IMG/VR virus record: IMGVR_UViG_3300002138_000054
Span: 1 to 28,239 of that record
Source of the DNA: a virus
DNA: 28,239 nucleotides
Direction: 5' to 3' (one strand)
Below are positions 2,147 through 7,174 of this stretch, one piece after another (position 1 is the first letter of the stretch; each line of letters opens with the position of its first letter). The notes beneath the pieces are model-generated. The model saw only the letters and a program-made list of their open reading frames with translations, was not told the DNA's origin and did not search any database. Both the position numbers and the translations under genes were made by a program.

Positions 2147-2875
2147 ATGTTAAACAATAATATTTTCTATCATGGAATTACGCGAAAGATTATCGTTGCA
2201 TTCGGTAGTCTATTTAGTGACATTCGCATCAATAGGAAAATGGATGACGAAACAATACAAACTATTGCTGTCCCGATAGCATATGCGCCTAAAGAAAAAT
2301 GGCTCGTTAGAATAGAACAAGATCCTAATCTAGATAATCACACATATACTACTCTTCCTCGTTTATCATTTGAGATTACAGGAATGAATTATGATGCTGG
2401 TCGTAAAATGAATAGGATGGGTTTTGTAACATGCGGCGATGGTGATAGTAATATGACAAAGACATATTCACCTGTTCCATATAATATTGACATATCGCTT
2501 TATTGTTTAACTAAAACACAAGAAGACGCTCTTCAAATCGTAGAACAAATATTTCCAGTTTTTACGCCAGAGTACACTATAAGTTTAAAGGGTGTGCCAG
2601 AGAGTAATATTATTATAGACATTCCTATTATTCTTCAAGGTGTAAGTATTCAAGACGATTATGATGGAGACTTTAATCAACGTAGATTTGTAACATATAC
2701 AATGAATTTTACGTTAAAAGCTAATTTCTATGGACCAGTTGTTAATGGTAAGATTATAACTAATACTCTTATTGATGTTAATAATATAACTGATACTGCA
2801 ATATACGCAAATCATGACGCAGAAGGTAATCCTACTACTGGTGTTATAACAGATAATTGGACTGAGAATATCTAA
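2147..2875 (+). CDS. 15: Tail sheath stabiliser / tail terminator gp15
   Basis: This 242-aa protein matches gp15, the hexameric cap that completes the contractile tail and docks to the neck. Shared family features include the N-terminal 'FYHGITRKIIVAFGSLFSDIRINRK', the 'VPIAYAPKEKWL' strand (VPITYASKEH in T4), 'TLPRLSFEITGMNYD', 'IVEQIFPVFTP' and a C-terminal 'RRFVTYTMNFTLKANFYGPV'. The length is close to T4 gp15 (272 aa). The stop overlaps the gene 17 start in a TAATG junction, which implies translational coupling. In T4, gene 16 lies between 15 and 17, but it is absent here. Confidence 0.93.
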   Translation: MLNNNIFYHGITRKIIVAFGSLFSDIRINRKMDDETIQTIAVPIAYAPKEKWLVRIEQDPNLDNHTYTTLPRLSFEITGMNYDAGRKMNRMGFVTCGDGDSNMTKTYSPVPYNIDISLYCLTKTQEDALQIVEQIFPVFTPEYTISLKGVPESNIIIDIPIILQGVSIQDDYDGDFNQRRFVTYTMNFTLKANFYGPVVNGKIITNTLIDVNNITDTAIYANHDAEGNPTTGVITDNWTENI

Positions 2876-4491
2876 TGAGTAATGAACTAAAATTTTATAA
2901 TTCTAATTCAAACCTGAAAGCAGCAGGGCAATCAATATCATTCACTCAAGAACAACTTGAAGAATATGTTAAATGCGCAGAAGATCCTATATACTTCATA
3001 AATAACTATTGTCAAATCGTTACACTCGATGATGGCTTACAACCATTTAAATTATATCCATGCCAAGTCAATAAGATCAATATCATCCATAGGAACCGTA
3101 TGGTTATCCTTATGGAAGGACGACAGCAAGGTAAGACTACTACATCTGCTGCGTACATTCTTTGGTATACATTATTTCAAGAAGCAAAAACAGTTGCTAT
3201 TTTAGCACATAAAGCTTCTGCAGCTCGAGAAGTATTAGATCGTTATCAAATCATGTATGAATTACTTCCAAAGTGGATGCAACAAGGTGTTGTGACTTGG
3301 AATAAAGGTGACGTAGAATTAGAAAATAGATCAAAGGTGTTTACGTCTGCTACTACAACTTCTGGTATTCGTGGTAAAACAGTCAATATGTTGTATATTG
3401 ATGAAACGTCAATTATTCCAAATAGTATTGCCGAAGCTTTCTTTGCATCAGTTTACCCAACAATTTCATCTGGTTCTGATACAAAGATTTTGTTAAGTTC
3501 TACTCCTTTAGGATATAACCATTTCTGGAAATTTTGGAATGACGCTGAGCATGGAAGAAATGGATTCATTCCTCTATTCATTCCTTATTCTGAAATTCCA
3601 GGAAGAGATAAAGCATGGGCTGATAATCAACACAGACTCCTCGGTGATCTTAAGTTTAACCAAGAAGTATTATGTAAGTTTCTAGGTTCTAGCTTTACGC
3701 TTATTTCGTCTAATACAATTTCTCAAATGTCTCCTGGTGATATCGTTTATCATAAAGACGGCCTCGACATATATGATAAACCAGTAATTGAAAATATAGA
3801 TACTCCAGGACGATCTTATTGTTTAATTGCAGATACTGCAAAGGGTATTGGAGGAGATTATTCAGCTTTTGTAGTAGTTGATATGACAGAAATGCCGTAT
3901 CGAGTTGTTGCTAAATATAGAGACAACAAGATTAGTCCACTGTTATATCCATCTGTAATATATAAAATTGCAACAGAATACAATAAAGCATATGTTTTAA
4001 TCGAAATAAATTCGTCTGAGCAAGTTGCAGACATTCTTTATAATGAATATGAGTATGAAAATATGGTATTCGTCAATAGATCTGGAGATGGCCAAGTAAT
4101 CTCGGGTGGTTTTGGCGGTGGTCGTACTCAGTTTGGCGTAGTAACAGATAAACGTGTGAAAAGAATTGGATGTTCTAACTTTAAAACTTTAGTTGAAGAG
4201 AAAAAGCTTTTAATTCCAGATGCTGATATTATTTCTGAAATATCTACTTTCATTCAAGTTAAGAATTCATATGAAGCAGATGAAGGGTATCATGATGATT
4301 TAATTATGCCACTCATTCTATTCTCTTGGGCAACTACCAATTCATACTTTAAAGAACTCAGCAACATCAATATTAGACAGGTGATTTACGAAAACCAAAT
4401 GAAAATGATTGAGCAAGAATTAACTCCTTTTGGTTTCTATGATGATGGGCAAAGTTTAGAAAATCACAAGGGTTTAGAATTATTAAAATGA
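2875..4491 (+). CDS. 17: Terminase large subunit gp17 (packaging ATPase-nuclease)
   Basis: This 538-aa protein is the DNA packaging motor and headful nuclease. Visible motifs are Walker A GRQQGKTT (residues 82-89), Walker B MLYIDE (172-177), the coupling motif SSTPLG (208-213), and an RNase H-like nuclease domain with Asp320 in 'LIADTAKGIGGDYSAF' and the 'YHDD' motif at 472-475. T4 gp17 is 610 aa, and the shorter length is usual for aquatic relatives. The start overlaps the gp15 stop by one base. The last 40 codons (from Asn499) are repeated downstream of the following endonuclease relic, so the present C-terminal end (GLELLK) looks like a replacement end brought by a homing element. All catalytic motifs are intact. 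Confidence 0.97.
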   Translation: MSNELKFYNSNSNLKAAGQSISFTQEQLEEYVKCAEDPIYFINNYCQIVTLDDGLQPFKLYPCQVNKINIIHRNRMVILMEGRQQGKTTTSAAYILWYTLFQEAKTVAILAHKASAAREVLDRYQIMYELLPKWMQQGVVTWNKGDVELENRSKVFTSATTTSGIRGKTVNMLYIDETSIIPNSIAEAFFASVYPTISSGSDTKILLSSTPLGYNHFWKFWNDAEHGRNGFIPLFIPYSEIPGRDKAWADNQHRLLGDLKFNQEVLCKFLGSSFTLISSNTISQMSPGDIVYHKDGLDIYDKPVIENIDTPGRSYCLIADTAKGIGGDYSAFVVVDMTEMPYRVVAKYRDNKISPLLYPSVIYKIATEYNKAYVLIEINSSEQVADILYNEYEYENMVFVNRSGDGQVISGGFGGGRTQFGVVTDKRVKRIGCSNFKTLVEEKKLLIPDADIISEISTFIQVKNSYEADEGYHDDLIMPLILFSWATTNSYFKELSNINIRQVIYENQMKMIEQELTPFGFYDDGQSLENHKGLELLK

Positions 4492-4712
4492 CAACGCATC
4501 TTTACATTAAACGTCATGTTGAAACTGGCATGATGTATTTTGGAAAAACTTCAAAGAAAGATCCGTATGCATATAATGGATCTGGTGTACTATGGAAGCG
4601 TCATATAAAGAAGCATGGTGATAATATTCAAACCATATGGGTAAAAGAGTTTGATCTAGAACTGGTTCTAAACGTGGGCCATACAAGAAGAAATGAATTA
4701 TATAAATATTAG
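4488..4712 (+). CDS. Truncated GIY-YIG homing endonuclease relic
   Basis: This 74-aa frame overlaps the gene 17 stop in an ATGA junction. Its N-terminus has the GIY-YIG nuclease signature in the form 'LYIKRHVETGMMYFGKT', followed by 'DPYAYNGSGVLWKRHIKKHG', which matches the catalytic-domain start of phage homing endonucleases (usually about 150-250 aa). The conserved downstream catalytic residues and DNA-binding modules are missing. After residue about 58 the frame becomes unlike the family. The next frame reads 'TGSKRGPYKKK' before TGA at 4694-4696, like the basic C-terminal segment of such enzymes. This suggests an internal deletion plus frameshift. It is probably inactive, and its position inside a duplicated gene 17 tail shows its insertion history. 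Confidence 0.75.
   Translation: MTTHLYIKRHVETGMMYFGKTSKKDPYAYNGSGVLWKRHIKKHGDNIQTIWVKEFDLELVLNVGHTRRNELYKY
4701..4708 (+). promoter_or_regulatory. Possible late promoter at the end of the endonuclease relic
   Basis: An exact TATAAATA octamer spans the boundary between the endonuclease relic and the duplicated terminase tail. It could contribute to late transcription of the sheath gene 190 nt downstream. It may be fortuitous in AT-rich DNA. Confidence 0.4.
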
Positions 4713-4824
4713 ACAGGTGATTTACGAAAACCAAATGAAAATGATTGAACAGGAATTAACTCCTTTTGGTTTCTATGATGGACAACACACAGATGTGCGA
4801 GAAGGCTTGGAACTTCTCAAATAA
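4705..4824 (+). pseudogene. Orphan duplicate of the gene 17 3' end
   Basis: This stretch encodes, in frame, 39 residues plus a stop: NIRQVIYENQMK..., ending GQHTDVREGLELLK. That is the terminase C-terminus again. Bases 4705-4780 match 4369-4444 of gene 17 at 74 of 76 positions. The tails then diverge at the nucleotide level while still encoding GLELLK. There is no start codon in a suitable position, so it is a non-coding remnant. It is most simply the original 3' end of gene 17, displaced by insertion of the GIY-YIG element together with a substitute end. Confidence 0.85.
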
Positions 4825-4831
4825 CTCAAAT

Positions 4832-4839
4832 AATAAATA
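4832..4839 (+). promoter_or_regulatory. Late promoter variant upstream of tail sheath gene
   Basis: AATAAATA (one base from the TATAAATA consensus) lies 55 nt before the gp18 start. The same variant precedes gp19 at 7207-7214, which supports its use. A second possibility in the same gap is a sigma70-like pair, GTAGAC (4842-4847) and TATAAT (4866-4871), with the 18-bp spacing seen elsewhere in the window. Confidence 0.45.
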
Positions 4840-4894
4840 GAGTAGACAAGCTGATTTGTTTACCATATAATATAAACTCTCAAGGAGAACCACA

Positions 4895-7174
4895 ATGCCT
4901 TTTGCTCTCTCTCCAGGCGTAACAGTAATCGAGAAAGATTTCTCATCTATTATCCCTGCAGTTTCTACTTCCGCTGGTGCCTGCGCCGGTGTGTTTTCGT
5001 GGGGTCCCGTATCTGAACCAACTACAGTTACTTCGGAAGATGTTCTTGTAGCTCGTTTTGGTAAGCCTAACGATTCAAACTTTAAGTCTTTTTTCACGGC
5101 TGCTAACTTTTTATCATATACAAATAACTTAATTGTTAATCGTGTTGATACAACAGGTCTTCGAAATGCAGTTTCATCTGCTGGAGGCGAAGTTTTAGAC
5201 GTTACATTCGCAACTGCAGGTTCTGGCTTTAAACCAGGACATGCAACAACCGTTGCATTTAGTGCACCTCAAACTGCTGGTGGTGTTACAGCAACTGGAA
5301 CAGTCATTCTTGCTGGTGGTGCTGTAACAAGTTTCACAGTTGGTACTGGTGGTTCTGGGTATTTAGTTGCTCCTACAGTTACAATTAGTGCACCAGATGT
5401 TGAAGGTGGCGTAAGAGCCGTAGCTGTTGCTACTATTAGTAGCGGTGCTGTGGTATCAATTGCTTTAGTTTCTGGTCAAGAAGGTTCTGGTTATACAGTT
5501 GCTCCTACAGTTACAATTACAAACGCACCTTCTGGCGGTGTTAATGCCATAGCTACTGCTGTTATAGCAACATCAGCAATTTCAAAAATTAGAATTACTA
5601 ACGGTGGTTCTGGTTATACAGTTGCTCCTACAGTTACGATAACAGCAGCTAATCAGGGAAGTGTTGGAGCTGTCGTATTACCTACTACAATCGTAGCAGT
5701 TCTTTCTGCAAATTCTGGTGTTAAGATTAGAAATTCTGAACATTATCTTTCTAGCTTCCGCGATTATCAGCAATCTGTTTATGGTATGTTTGCTGCAAGA
5801 TATCCAGGTGCTTTAGGTAATGGTATTCAAGTTATCCTAATTGATAATGCTGTTTGGACTTGGGCATCAGCTAATTCTAGCAACACTACTGCTAAATTAA
5901 TTACAAATTCTTTTGCTGGCGCTCCTGGTAGTTCTGCACAAGCTGCTTTAAAATCAATTACAAACGATGAACTCCATGTATTAGTTCTTGATAGTTCTAC
6001 TGGAACATGGTCTGGAACTCCTAACAGCGTATTAGAAAAATACTCGTATCTTTCAAAGTTAAAGAGTGTTGTACGCAGTGATGGCACTAATCTTTATTTC
6101 CGCGATGCTATTAATTCTATTTCTAAGTATCTTTGGGTTCTAAATACTCCATCTTCTGTTCAAGTTAACGATCCACAAAACTTAGACTGGACACGTGACG
6201 TAAACACTATAGTTGCAGGTTCAAACTTACGAGATCTAAATGCTGCTGCATTAACTATCACGCTAGCTGGTGGCATTGATGATTTTGGAGCAACTGCTGG
6301 TAACGTTGAAGCTGCGTATATGCAATTCCTTAATACAGATTTGTATGATATTTCACTAGTTGCCTCAGGCGATGTAAGTATTTCTACTGCTAATAAATTA
6401 ATTGGCGATTTAGCTGAAGCACGACGTGATTGTGTTGTGTTTATATCTCCACGAAATGTAGATGGCACGCCAATTATTGCATCTGGTGATGATGGAGTTA
6501 CTGCTATTAAGACTTTCAAAGCTAATATGACAAACAGTTCATATGCAGTTCTTGATTCGGGCGCCAAGTATCAGTATGATCGTTATAACGATATGTATCG
6601 TTGGATTCCTTTAAATGGTGATATGGCTGGTTTATGTGCGCGCACAGATTACACAGCAGATCCTTGGTTCTCTCCAGGCGGATTTACTCGCGGCCAGATT
6701 AAAAATGTTGTTAAACTTGGTTTTAATCCAGGTCAAACAGAACGCGATAATCTTTATAAAGAAGGTGTTAATCCTATTGTTACATTCCCAGGTCAAGGTA
6801 CTATCTTGTTTGGCGATAAAACATTTACTTCTAAACCAAGTGCATTCGATCGTATTAACGTACGGCGTTTATTCATTGTTATTGAGAAGGCGATCGCGAT
6901 TGCTGCAAAGTATCAACTGTTTGAATTCAATGACGATTTTACTCAAGCTCAATTCCGAAACTTAGTTGAACCATTCTTACGGAATGTTCAAGGAAGACGT
7001 GGTATTGTTGACTTCCGCGTTAAGTGTGATGCAACTAATAACACCGGTGAAGTTATTGATCGAAATGAATTCGTTGCAAGTTTATTCATTAAACCAAATC
7101 GTTCTATCAACTTCATCACTCTAAATTTCGTAGCAGCTCGCTCTTCAGTAAGCTTCGATGAAATTGGTGGTTAA
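4895..7174 (+). CDS. 18: Tail sheath protein gp18 with a repeat insertion
   Basis: This 759-aa protein forms the contractile tail sheath. The N-terminus 'LSPGVTVIEKDFSSIIPAVSTSAGACAG' and the C-terminal domain ('NFVAARSSVSFDEIGG', 'FEFNDDFTQAQFRNLVEPFLRNVQGRRGI') are characteristic of T4-like sheaths, where this end carries the inter-subunit contacts. It is about 100 residues longer than T4 gp18 (659 aa). The excess lies at about residues 105-265 and consists of four repeats opening with a GSG(F/Y) motif (GSGFKPG, GSGYLVAPTVTI, then GSGYTVAPTVTI twice), a beta-rich repeat type found as a surface domain in many phage structural proteins. Start: AGGAG ribosome site 9 nt upstream. Confidence 0.95.
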   Translation: MPFALSPGVTVIEKDFSSIIPAVSTSAGACAGVFSWGPVSEPTTVTSEDVLVARFGKPNDSNFKSFFTAANFLSYTNNLIVNRVDTTGLRNAVSSAGGEVLDVTFATAGSGFKPGHATTVAFSAPQTAGGVTATGTVILAGGAVTSFTVGTGGSGYLVAPTVTISAPDVEGGVRAVAVATISSGAVVSIALVSGQEGSGYTVAPTVTITNAPSGGVNAIATAVIATSAISKIRITNGGSGYTVAPTVTITAANQGSVGAVVLPTTIVAVLSANSGVKIRNSEHYLSSFRDYQQSVYGMFAARYPGALGNGIQVILIDNAVWTWASANSSNTTAKLITNSFAGAPGSSAQAALKSITNDELHVLVLDSSTGTWSGTPNSVLEKYSYLSKLKSVVRSDGTNLYFRDAINSISKYLWVLNTPSSVQVNDPQNLDWTRDVNTIVAGSNLRDLNAAALTITLAGGIDDFGATAGNVEAAYMQFLNTDLYDISLVASGDVSISTANKLIGDLAEARRDCVVFISPRNVDGTPIIASGDDGVTAIKTFKANMTNSSYAVLDSGAKYQYDRYNDMYRWIPLNGDMAGLCARTDYTADPWFSPGGFTRGQIKNVVKLGFNPGQTERDNLYKEGVNPIVTFPGQGTILFGDKTFTSKPSAFDRINVRRLFIVIEKAIAIAAKYQLFEFNDDFTQAQFRNLVEPFLRNVQGRRGIVDFRVKCDATNNTGEVIDRNEFVASLFIKPNRSINFITLNFVAARSSVSFDEIGG
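5219..5640 (+). repeat. In-frame tandem repeats in the tail sheath gene
   Basis: Repeat units begin at 5219, 5351, 5483 and 5606 (spacing 132, 132 and 123 bp). Each opens with GGTTCTGG, encoding GSG. The third and fourth units share a perfect stretch of about 32 bp at 5483 and 5606. The high nucleotide identity suggests recent internal duplication or gene conversion. Confidence 0.85.

Follow-up and report, generated by a model that had tools for sequence, protein, structure and literature searches.

Free-standing homing endonucleases (HEGs) that bring a substitute end to the gene they invade are known from fungal mitochondria, where the same architecture as that described here occurs in atp6, atp9, cox2 and nad3 of Glomus sp. 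and, earlier, in atp6 of Allomyces macrogynus, and where the inserted ends of the hybrid genes were found by RT-PCR to be expressed in mRNA (PMC3630166). For phages, a review of the T4 HEGs describes intergenic HEGs, introns and split genes and no end replacement (PMC2988022), and a survey of phage HEGs similarly covers splicing, islands and HEGs that lie close to essential genes (PMC10448857). By design, the engineered home-and-rescue drive HomeR targets an essential gene in its 3' coding end and brings along a re-coded rescue (PMC7968924).

We examined a 28,239-nucleotide stretch of DNA from a marine T4-like virus (IMG/VR record IMGVR_UViG_3300002138_000054; hereafter the window) in which gene 17, coding for the terminase large subunit, has two 3' ends with the remains of a GIY-YIG HEG between them. 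As in Allomyces and Glomus, a free-standing HEG is accompanied by a divergent version of its target's 3' end, joined in frame to the resident gene, and it is the displaced native end that matches insertion-free relatives; unlike those systems, which are mitochondrial and mostly involve LAGLIDADG enzymes, the setting here is lytic phages, the HEG family is GIY-YIG/NUMOD3, and there is a version at the 5' end of a gene as well. The locus shares with the seg and mob HEGs of T4-like phages (PMC2988022) a GIY-YIG HEG beside an essential gene, a HEG start overlapping the upstream stop and presumed homing by break repair, and differs from them in that they sit between genes or split one, whereas here a gene end is replaced and the old end left behind. 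It indicates that a selfish nuclease gene can inhabit a phage gene that is essential, needing no intron, intein or split protein, by bringing a substitute end. Integrases likewise insert in the 3' ends of genes, as in prophage e14 in icd, and there too the gene end that the element displaces is made good by one of its own; that process uses a site-specific recombinase and duplicates the target by attachment-site recombination, whereas here there is no recombinase gene and the inserts of both the window and a second carrier (L081) consist of a gene end and a HEG only, and an integrase-type insertion was therefore rejected. As with HomeR, the target lies 3' in the coding region of an essential gene and the element brings a re-coded rescue for that end, although HomeR is synthetic and Cas9-based while the phage element is natural and its cutting presumed. 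Engineered home-and-rescue drives would have in this element a natural equivalent, which shares their known weakness, homology between rescue and target. Our search of the phage literature found gene splitting, introns and inteins and no end replacement; its coverage was incomplete and such absence is weak evidence, and gene-end replacement by a HEG is likely to be new in phages.

Two 3' ends of gene 17 and a homing endonuclease relic

The complete gene 17 of the window (538 aa, 2875-4491, + strand, as are all features of the locus given below) was identified from the list of open reading frames as coding for a T4-type terminase large subunit, with matches to Terminase_6N/6C (Pfam) and to terminases (PHROG). 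A reading of the sequence alone had proposed that the functional copy ends at 4491 and that a second in-frame end follows at 4705-4824, and two ends are indeed present, with the 538-aa terminase completed by the upstream copy. The displaced end keeps this frame open as far as 4824, but its homology starts earlier than had been proposed, at 4701 (TATAAATATT), and it therefore spans 4701-4824 (codon 498 to stop). Re-alignment gave the same result as first reported for the core repeat, with 74 of 76 positions agreeing between 4369-4444 and 4705-4780; the sequences diverge 3' of these, and both ends close on GLELLK in different synonymous codons (GGT TTA GAA TTA TTA AAA TGA upstream and GGC TTG GAA CTT CTC AAA TAA downstream). 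Recoding had been placed from about 4445, and comparison of alleles shows that the tail is recoded, codons 525-538 and the stop forming the functional gene 17 end (recoded patch 2, 4447-4491), but that upstream recoding already starts at codon 495 (4357). This first patch, codons 495-498 (4357-4368), adjoins the insertion point and emerged from comparison with empty alleles and with the closest relative found, L173; it reads CTC AGC AAC ATC in the window and TTA AGT AAT ATA in L173, all four changes being synonymous. A 9-bp repeat follows the stop of the downstream gene 17 copy, and the next gene after the displaced end, gp18, starts at 4895.

The GIY-YIG relic suspected between the two ends lies at 4488-4696, as defined by its ORF, PHROG and comparison with L081, and consists of the first ~56 codons of the HEG (4488-4654) followed, in another frame, by the last 13 codons and the old stop (4655-4696). 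The window ORF (74 aa, 4488-4712) shares an ATGA with the terminase gene, its start overlapping the stop of that gene. It is similar to homing endonucleases of phages (PHROG 314, E=4e-6) and is truncated and frame-shifted relative to L081, an internal deletion of ~318 bp and a frameshift separating the two. The region for the conserved N82 and E86 is gone, and the window HEG is therefore dead. The HEG of L081 is full-length (179 aa) and has the conserved LY-YFG motif, with W36, H39, N82 and E86 invariant in 18 relatives; these relatives are of the GIY-YIG/NUMOD3 family, and the L081 protein has NUMOD3 repeats, NUMOD3 being all that Pfam reports. The best PDB match of its AlphaFold model (mean pLDDT 84) is the I-TevI catalytic domain (Foldseek: probability 1.00, target TM 0.66, E 0.036), and the protein is predicted to be a GIY-YIG homing endonuclease with an I-TevI-like catalytic fold.

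The insert of the window is 336 bp, made up of the gene end and the HEG relic only. There was no Rfam match in 2800-5000 at E up to 0.1, and the terminase ORF is complete with its stop before the HEG; a group I intron or intein at the insertion was rejected on these grounds, in agreement with the suggestion of a non-intron, non-intein life inside an essential gene.

Insertion-free alleles and a second carrier

If the element displaced the original end, relatives without the insertion should match the downstream copy, and the functional end should match other carriers of the element; both expectations of the sequence-only reading were borne out. L173 is insertion-free; its identity to the window is 92.6% in the 3261 bp compared upstream and 95% in the 2773 bp compared downstream. 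Its gene 17 end (CAACACACAGATATGCGAGAAGGCTTGGAACTTCTCAAATAA) matches the downstream copy and differs from the functional tail. The downstream-type end is also found in about a dozen further insertion-free clade members (L167-L178), and AATATAAATATTAGACA is unbroken at the insertion point in every empty allele of the clade. As it is the downstream end that these relatives have, the functional end is the later arrival, and the final ~44 codons of gene 17 are element-borne, wholly or in part. Comparison with L173 places the insertion, expected near codon 499, at codon 498/499, and the original end does persist as a pseudogene, 4701-4824 matching the insertion-free alleles and resembling L173 except for the loss of one Asp codon. 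The description of the functional end as foreign fits its divergence from native ends, but no HEG-free donor lineage of the recoded end was found among ~150 gene 17 loci, the end being present only in the carrier L081. For phage phylogenies, this means that gene ends can be foreign and that adjacent 'duplicate' structural-gene fragments may be misannotated.

Among ~150 gene 17 loci, those in which both genes could be seen and read through have a gap of 45-95 bp between genes 17 and 18, and this insertion is present only in the window and its second assembly, L001 (403-bp gap), and in L081 (716-bp gap). L081 is ~77% identical to the window and has the same layout. Both carriers have AACATCAATATT upstream of the HEG and, downstream, HEG sequence and then TATAAATATTAGACA, and AAC ATC is present in both while AAT ATA is present in all GLELLK-clade empty alleles. 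Recoded patch 2 is likewise common to L081 and in no native allele; the L081 tail (GGTTTAGAGTTATTAAAATGA) differs from that of the window at one of 18 coding nucleotides and from native tails at 6-8, whereas the two recoded tails together differ from native tails at 5-8 of 18, and native tails from each other at a mean of 1.6 and a maximum of 5. The two carriers are not sister lineages, as the gp18 tree pairs the window with L173 (100/100), with L169 next to them, and places L081 elsewhere, which implies either separate acquisitions or replacement by empty alleles. No case for recent transfer between the window and L081 is made, because the identity of their HEGs (72%) is not above that of the flanks (77-79%). 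Two pattern scans of viral contigs gave no further carriers of the gene 17 element, and the genome contigs searched gave distant matches only. We also considered whether the empty alleles arose when the repeats recombined with each other, which is not supported: such an event would leave an AACATC patch, and since no empty allele of the clade has one, the empty alleles look original. We hold the architecture, its polarity and the recoding with very high confidence.

Probable origin of the substitute end and possible self-protection

Taken together, these comparisons make it highly probable that a HEG-borne copy replaced the end of gene 17. A free-standing GIY-YIG HEG would have entered gene 17 at codon 498/499 together with a recoded gene 17 end, the two forming one unit. 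The carried end would have fused in frame to the resident gene so that the essential terminase stayed whole, with its stop overlapped by the HEG start (ATGA), while the end previously in place was pushed downstream to become a pseudogene. With the native site gone, through synonymous recoding upstream and interruption downstream, the carrier would be protected from its own enzyme, and empty alleles would be cut and converted. The middle ~76 bp of both copies would later have been homogenised, and in the window genome the HEG would have died by internal deletion, leaving a fixed, inert element. The steps that we infer here are cleavage of the native site, homing, self-resistance and homogenisation by gene conversion.

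The last of these steps is a cost to the explanation, as the core is native-like in both copies and gene conversion has to be added to account for it. Five sites of the 79-bp core unite the two copies within a genome, and a single one, at the junction, unites like copies across genomes; the 21-bp tail has none of the first kind and six of the second (core versus tail, Fisher p=0.015), and a His codon in L081 is common to both of its core copies. This grouping of sites indicates that the core copies evolved together within each genome while the tails remained distinct, and the ~76-bp core was probably homogenised by gene conversion between the direct repeats. An alternative, which we consider unlikely, is that only the last ~14 codons and the HEG were imported, both cores belonging to the recipient and being joined at TATAAATATT by microhomology-guided template switching in break repair, with no later gene conversion needed. 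Such a limited import agrees with core copies that are lineage-specific in both carriers, and with a further locus (L150, below) that also has a perfect repeat just before divergent tails, but it leaves the recoded patch at codons 495-498 stranded on the far side of the core, and is difficult to reconcile with the identical junction in both carriers and with the recoded stretches of the Vibrio phages described below, which flank a 27-bp perfect match.

Ordinary recombination could also have produced a tandem duplication of the gene 17 end, with the HEG arriving later between the copies and the recoding reflecting drift. Near identity of the 76-bp core copies is what such an event predicts, but it is the functional copy that deviates, in nearly every tail codon, and the non-functional copy that is native-like, the reverse of expectation, and on this ground a plain tandem duplication was rejected; the same deviant tail and same junction in two diverged carriers, and recurrence of the design with the same HEG family at other genes, make this origin very improbable. 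A chimeric assembly of two strains might be imagined for a metagenomic virus record, but is scarcely credible and was ruled out by L001, in which the structure is the same and 5401 bp contain 4 mismatches, by the same architecture in the ~77% identical L081, and by the mirror image in cultured Vibrio phages.

If a HEG-borne copy replaced the gene end, the position of the recoding bears on how a carrier might escape its own enzyme. Between the window and L173, codons 480-494 are identical, codons 495-498 are all changed, codons 499-524 are nearly unchanged and codons 525-538 are recoded; apart from 495-498, nowhere upstream of the tail are four consecutive codons changed. The chance of four changes out of four at a prespecified place is ~2e-4 (gene-wide synonymous rate 0.126 per codon), a value that assumes independence, and the leucine and serine codons vary among empty alleles too while AAT ATA does not. 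The native insertion site is missing from both carrier copies, recoded upstream and interrupted downstream, which is the pattern expected of self-protection, and we regard the suggestion that the recoding serves as protection against self-cutting as evenly balanced. Resistance to cutting had initially been attributed to the recoded gene 17 end, but the GLELLK tail alone cannot give self-protection because the native tail remains intact at 4781-4824; any self-protection would have to involve the insertion point, and recoding of codons 495-498 there would fit immunity better. The question of immunity is testable, because each carrier offers paired native and altered junctions.

A motif scan located TATAAATA, which corresponds to the T4 late-promoter motif, at the native insertion site (4701-4708); it is kept in the downstream copy and destroyed in the recoded upstream copy. 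That it acts as a promoter is a guess, and this could explain the conservation of this coding stretch and hence why it would be a good target. Ten of the eleven WATAAATA matches in the window are on the coding strand, mostly just upstream of genes, and their total is not above chance; motifs of this kind occur ahead of genes such as gp13 and gp19 as well as at 4701-4708 and 4832-4839. Within the gp18-like tail sheath gene there are imperfect ~39-bp direct repeats at 5348-5387, 5483-5521 and 5603-5644 (motif GSGY-VAPTVTI), which suggests a repeated inserted domain.

Gene-end duplications at other phage genes

We surveyed 49 distinct HEG loci with usable flanks, and found four clear cases of gene-end duplication and one further group (L090) that is unclear. 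In the cultured Vibrio phages VB_VaC_SRILMA (PP083314.1, L086 2878-4568) and TDDLMA (L253), neck gene 13 is the target: its first ~37 codons run in frame into a HEG, 3' of which lies a full gene 13 whose start is recoded, a mirror image at the 5' end. In SRILMA the recoded N-terminus is VSRVNTKQ and the native one MARINTKV. Four insertion-free relatives (pv27, Va1, phiTY18 and phiKT1024), ~93-94% identical over the matching parts of the target gene, match the native-position fragment, which is 90-100% identical to them and falls to ~80% only in the last 29-bp block beside the insertion. The functional gene 13 is 62-65% and 70-72% identical to the insertion-free phages in its first two 60-bp blocks, and then 85-100% per block. 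The gene 13 pieces of SRILMA are annotated as two 'head-tail adaptor' genes.

Two further cases are at 3' ends. A metallophosphoesterase gene (L150 3822-5223, IMGVR_UViG_3300028388_001406) has a duplicated, divergent 3' end flanking an opposing GIY-YIG HEG, the duplicates sharing 54 bp at 98% before their tails diverge; empty relatives of this locus were looked for and none were found. In a head-maturation protease gene (L158 3130-5136, IMGVR_UViG_3300036715_000321) the last ~15 codons are duplicated beyond a GIY-YIG HEG, the copies (PAWTVALSDYHFSW and PAWAMALSDKHFSW) agreeing at 35 of 48 nucleotides over the last 16 codons, with codons that are largely different. For L150 and L158 we infer which of the ends is native. 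A weaker, possible case, which was not counted, is a spanin-like gene in L090-L098 (~3400-5080), with a degenerate partial second copy across a GIY-YIG HEG. No end duplication was detected at HEG relatives located beside or between genes in Acinetobacter Apostate, Rhizobium P10VF, Pseudomonas pf16, Escherichia E26 and Ochrobactrum ORM_20.

We tentatively suggest, at slightly less than an even call, that these loci represent a general phage class of natural home-and-rescue elements, in which either end of an essential structural gene would be open to invasion by a GIY-YIG HEG that brings a recoded, cleavage-resistant end, with a putative cut site at the insertion junction, which in gene 17 would be a conserved late-promoter-like motif. 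A different solution in the same gene 17 is seen in L199 (310-3057, IMGVR_UViG_3300001605_001436) and also in L198, where, as judged by eye, a split intein apparently breaks up the gene near codon 270, the order in L199 being the N-terminal part, an apparent GIY-YIG HEG ORF, and a C-terminal intein part joined to the remaining terminase.
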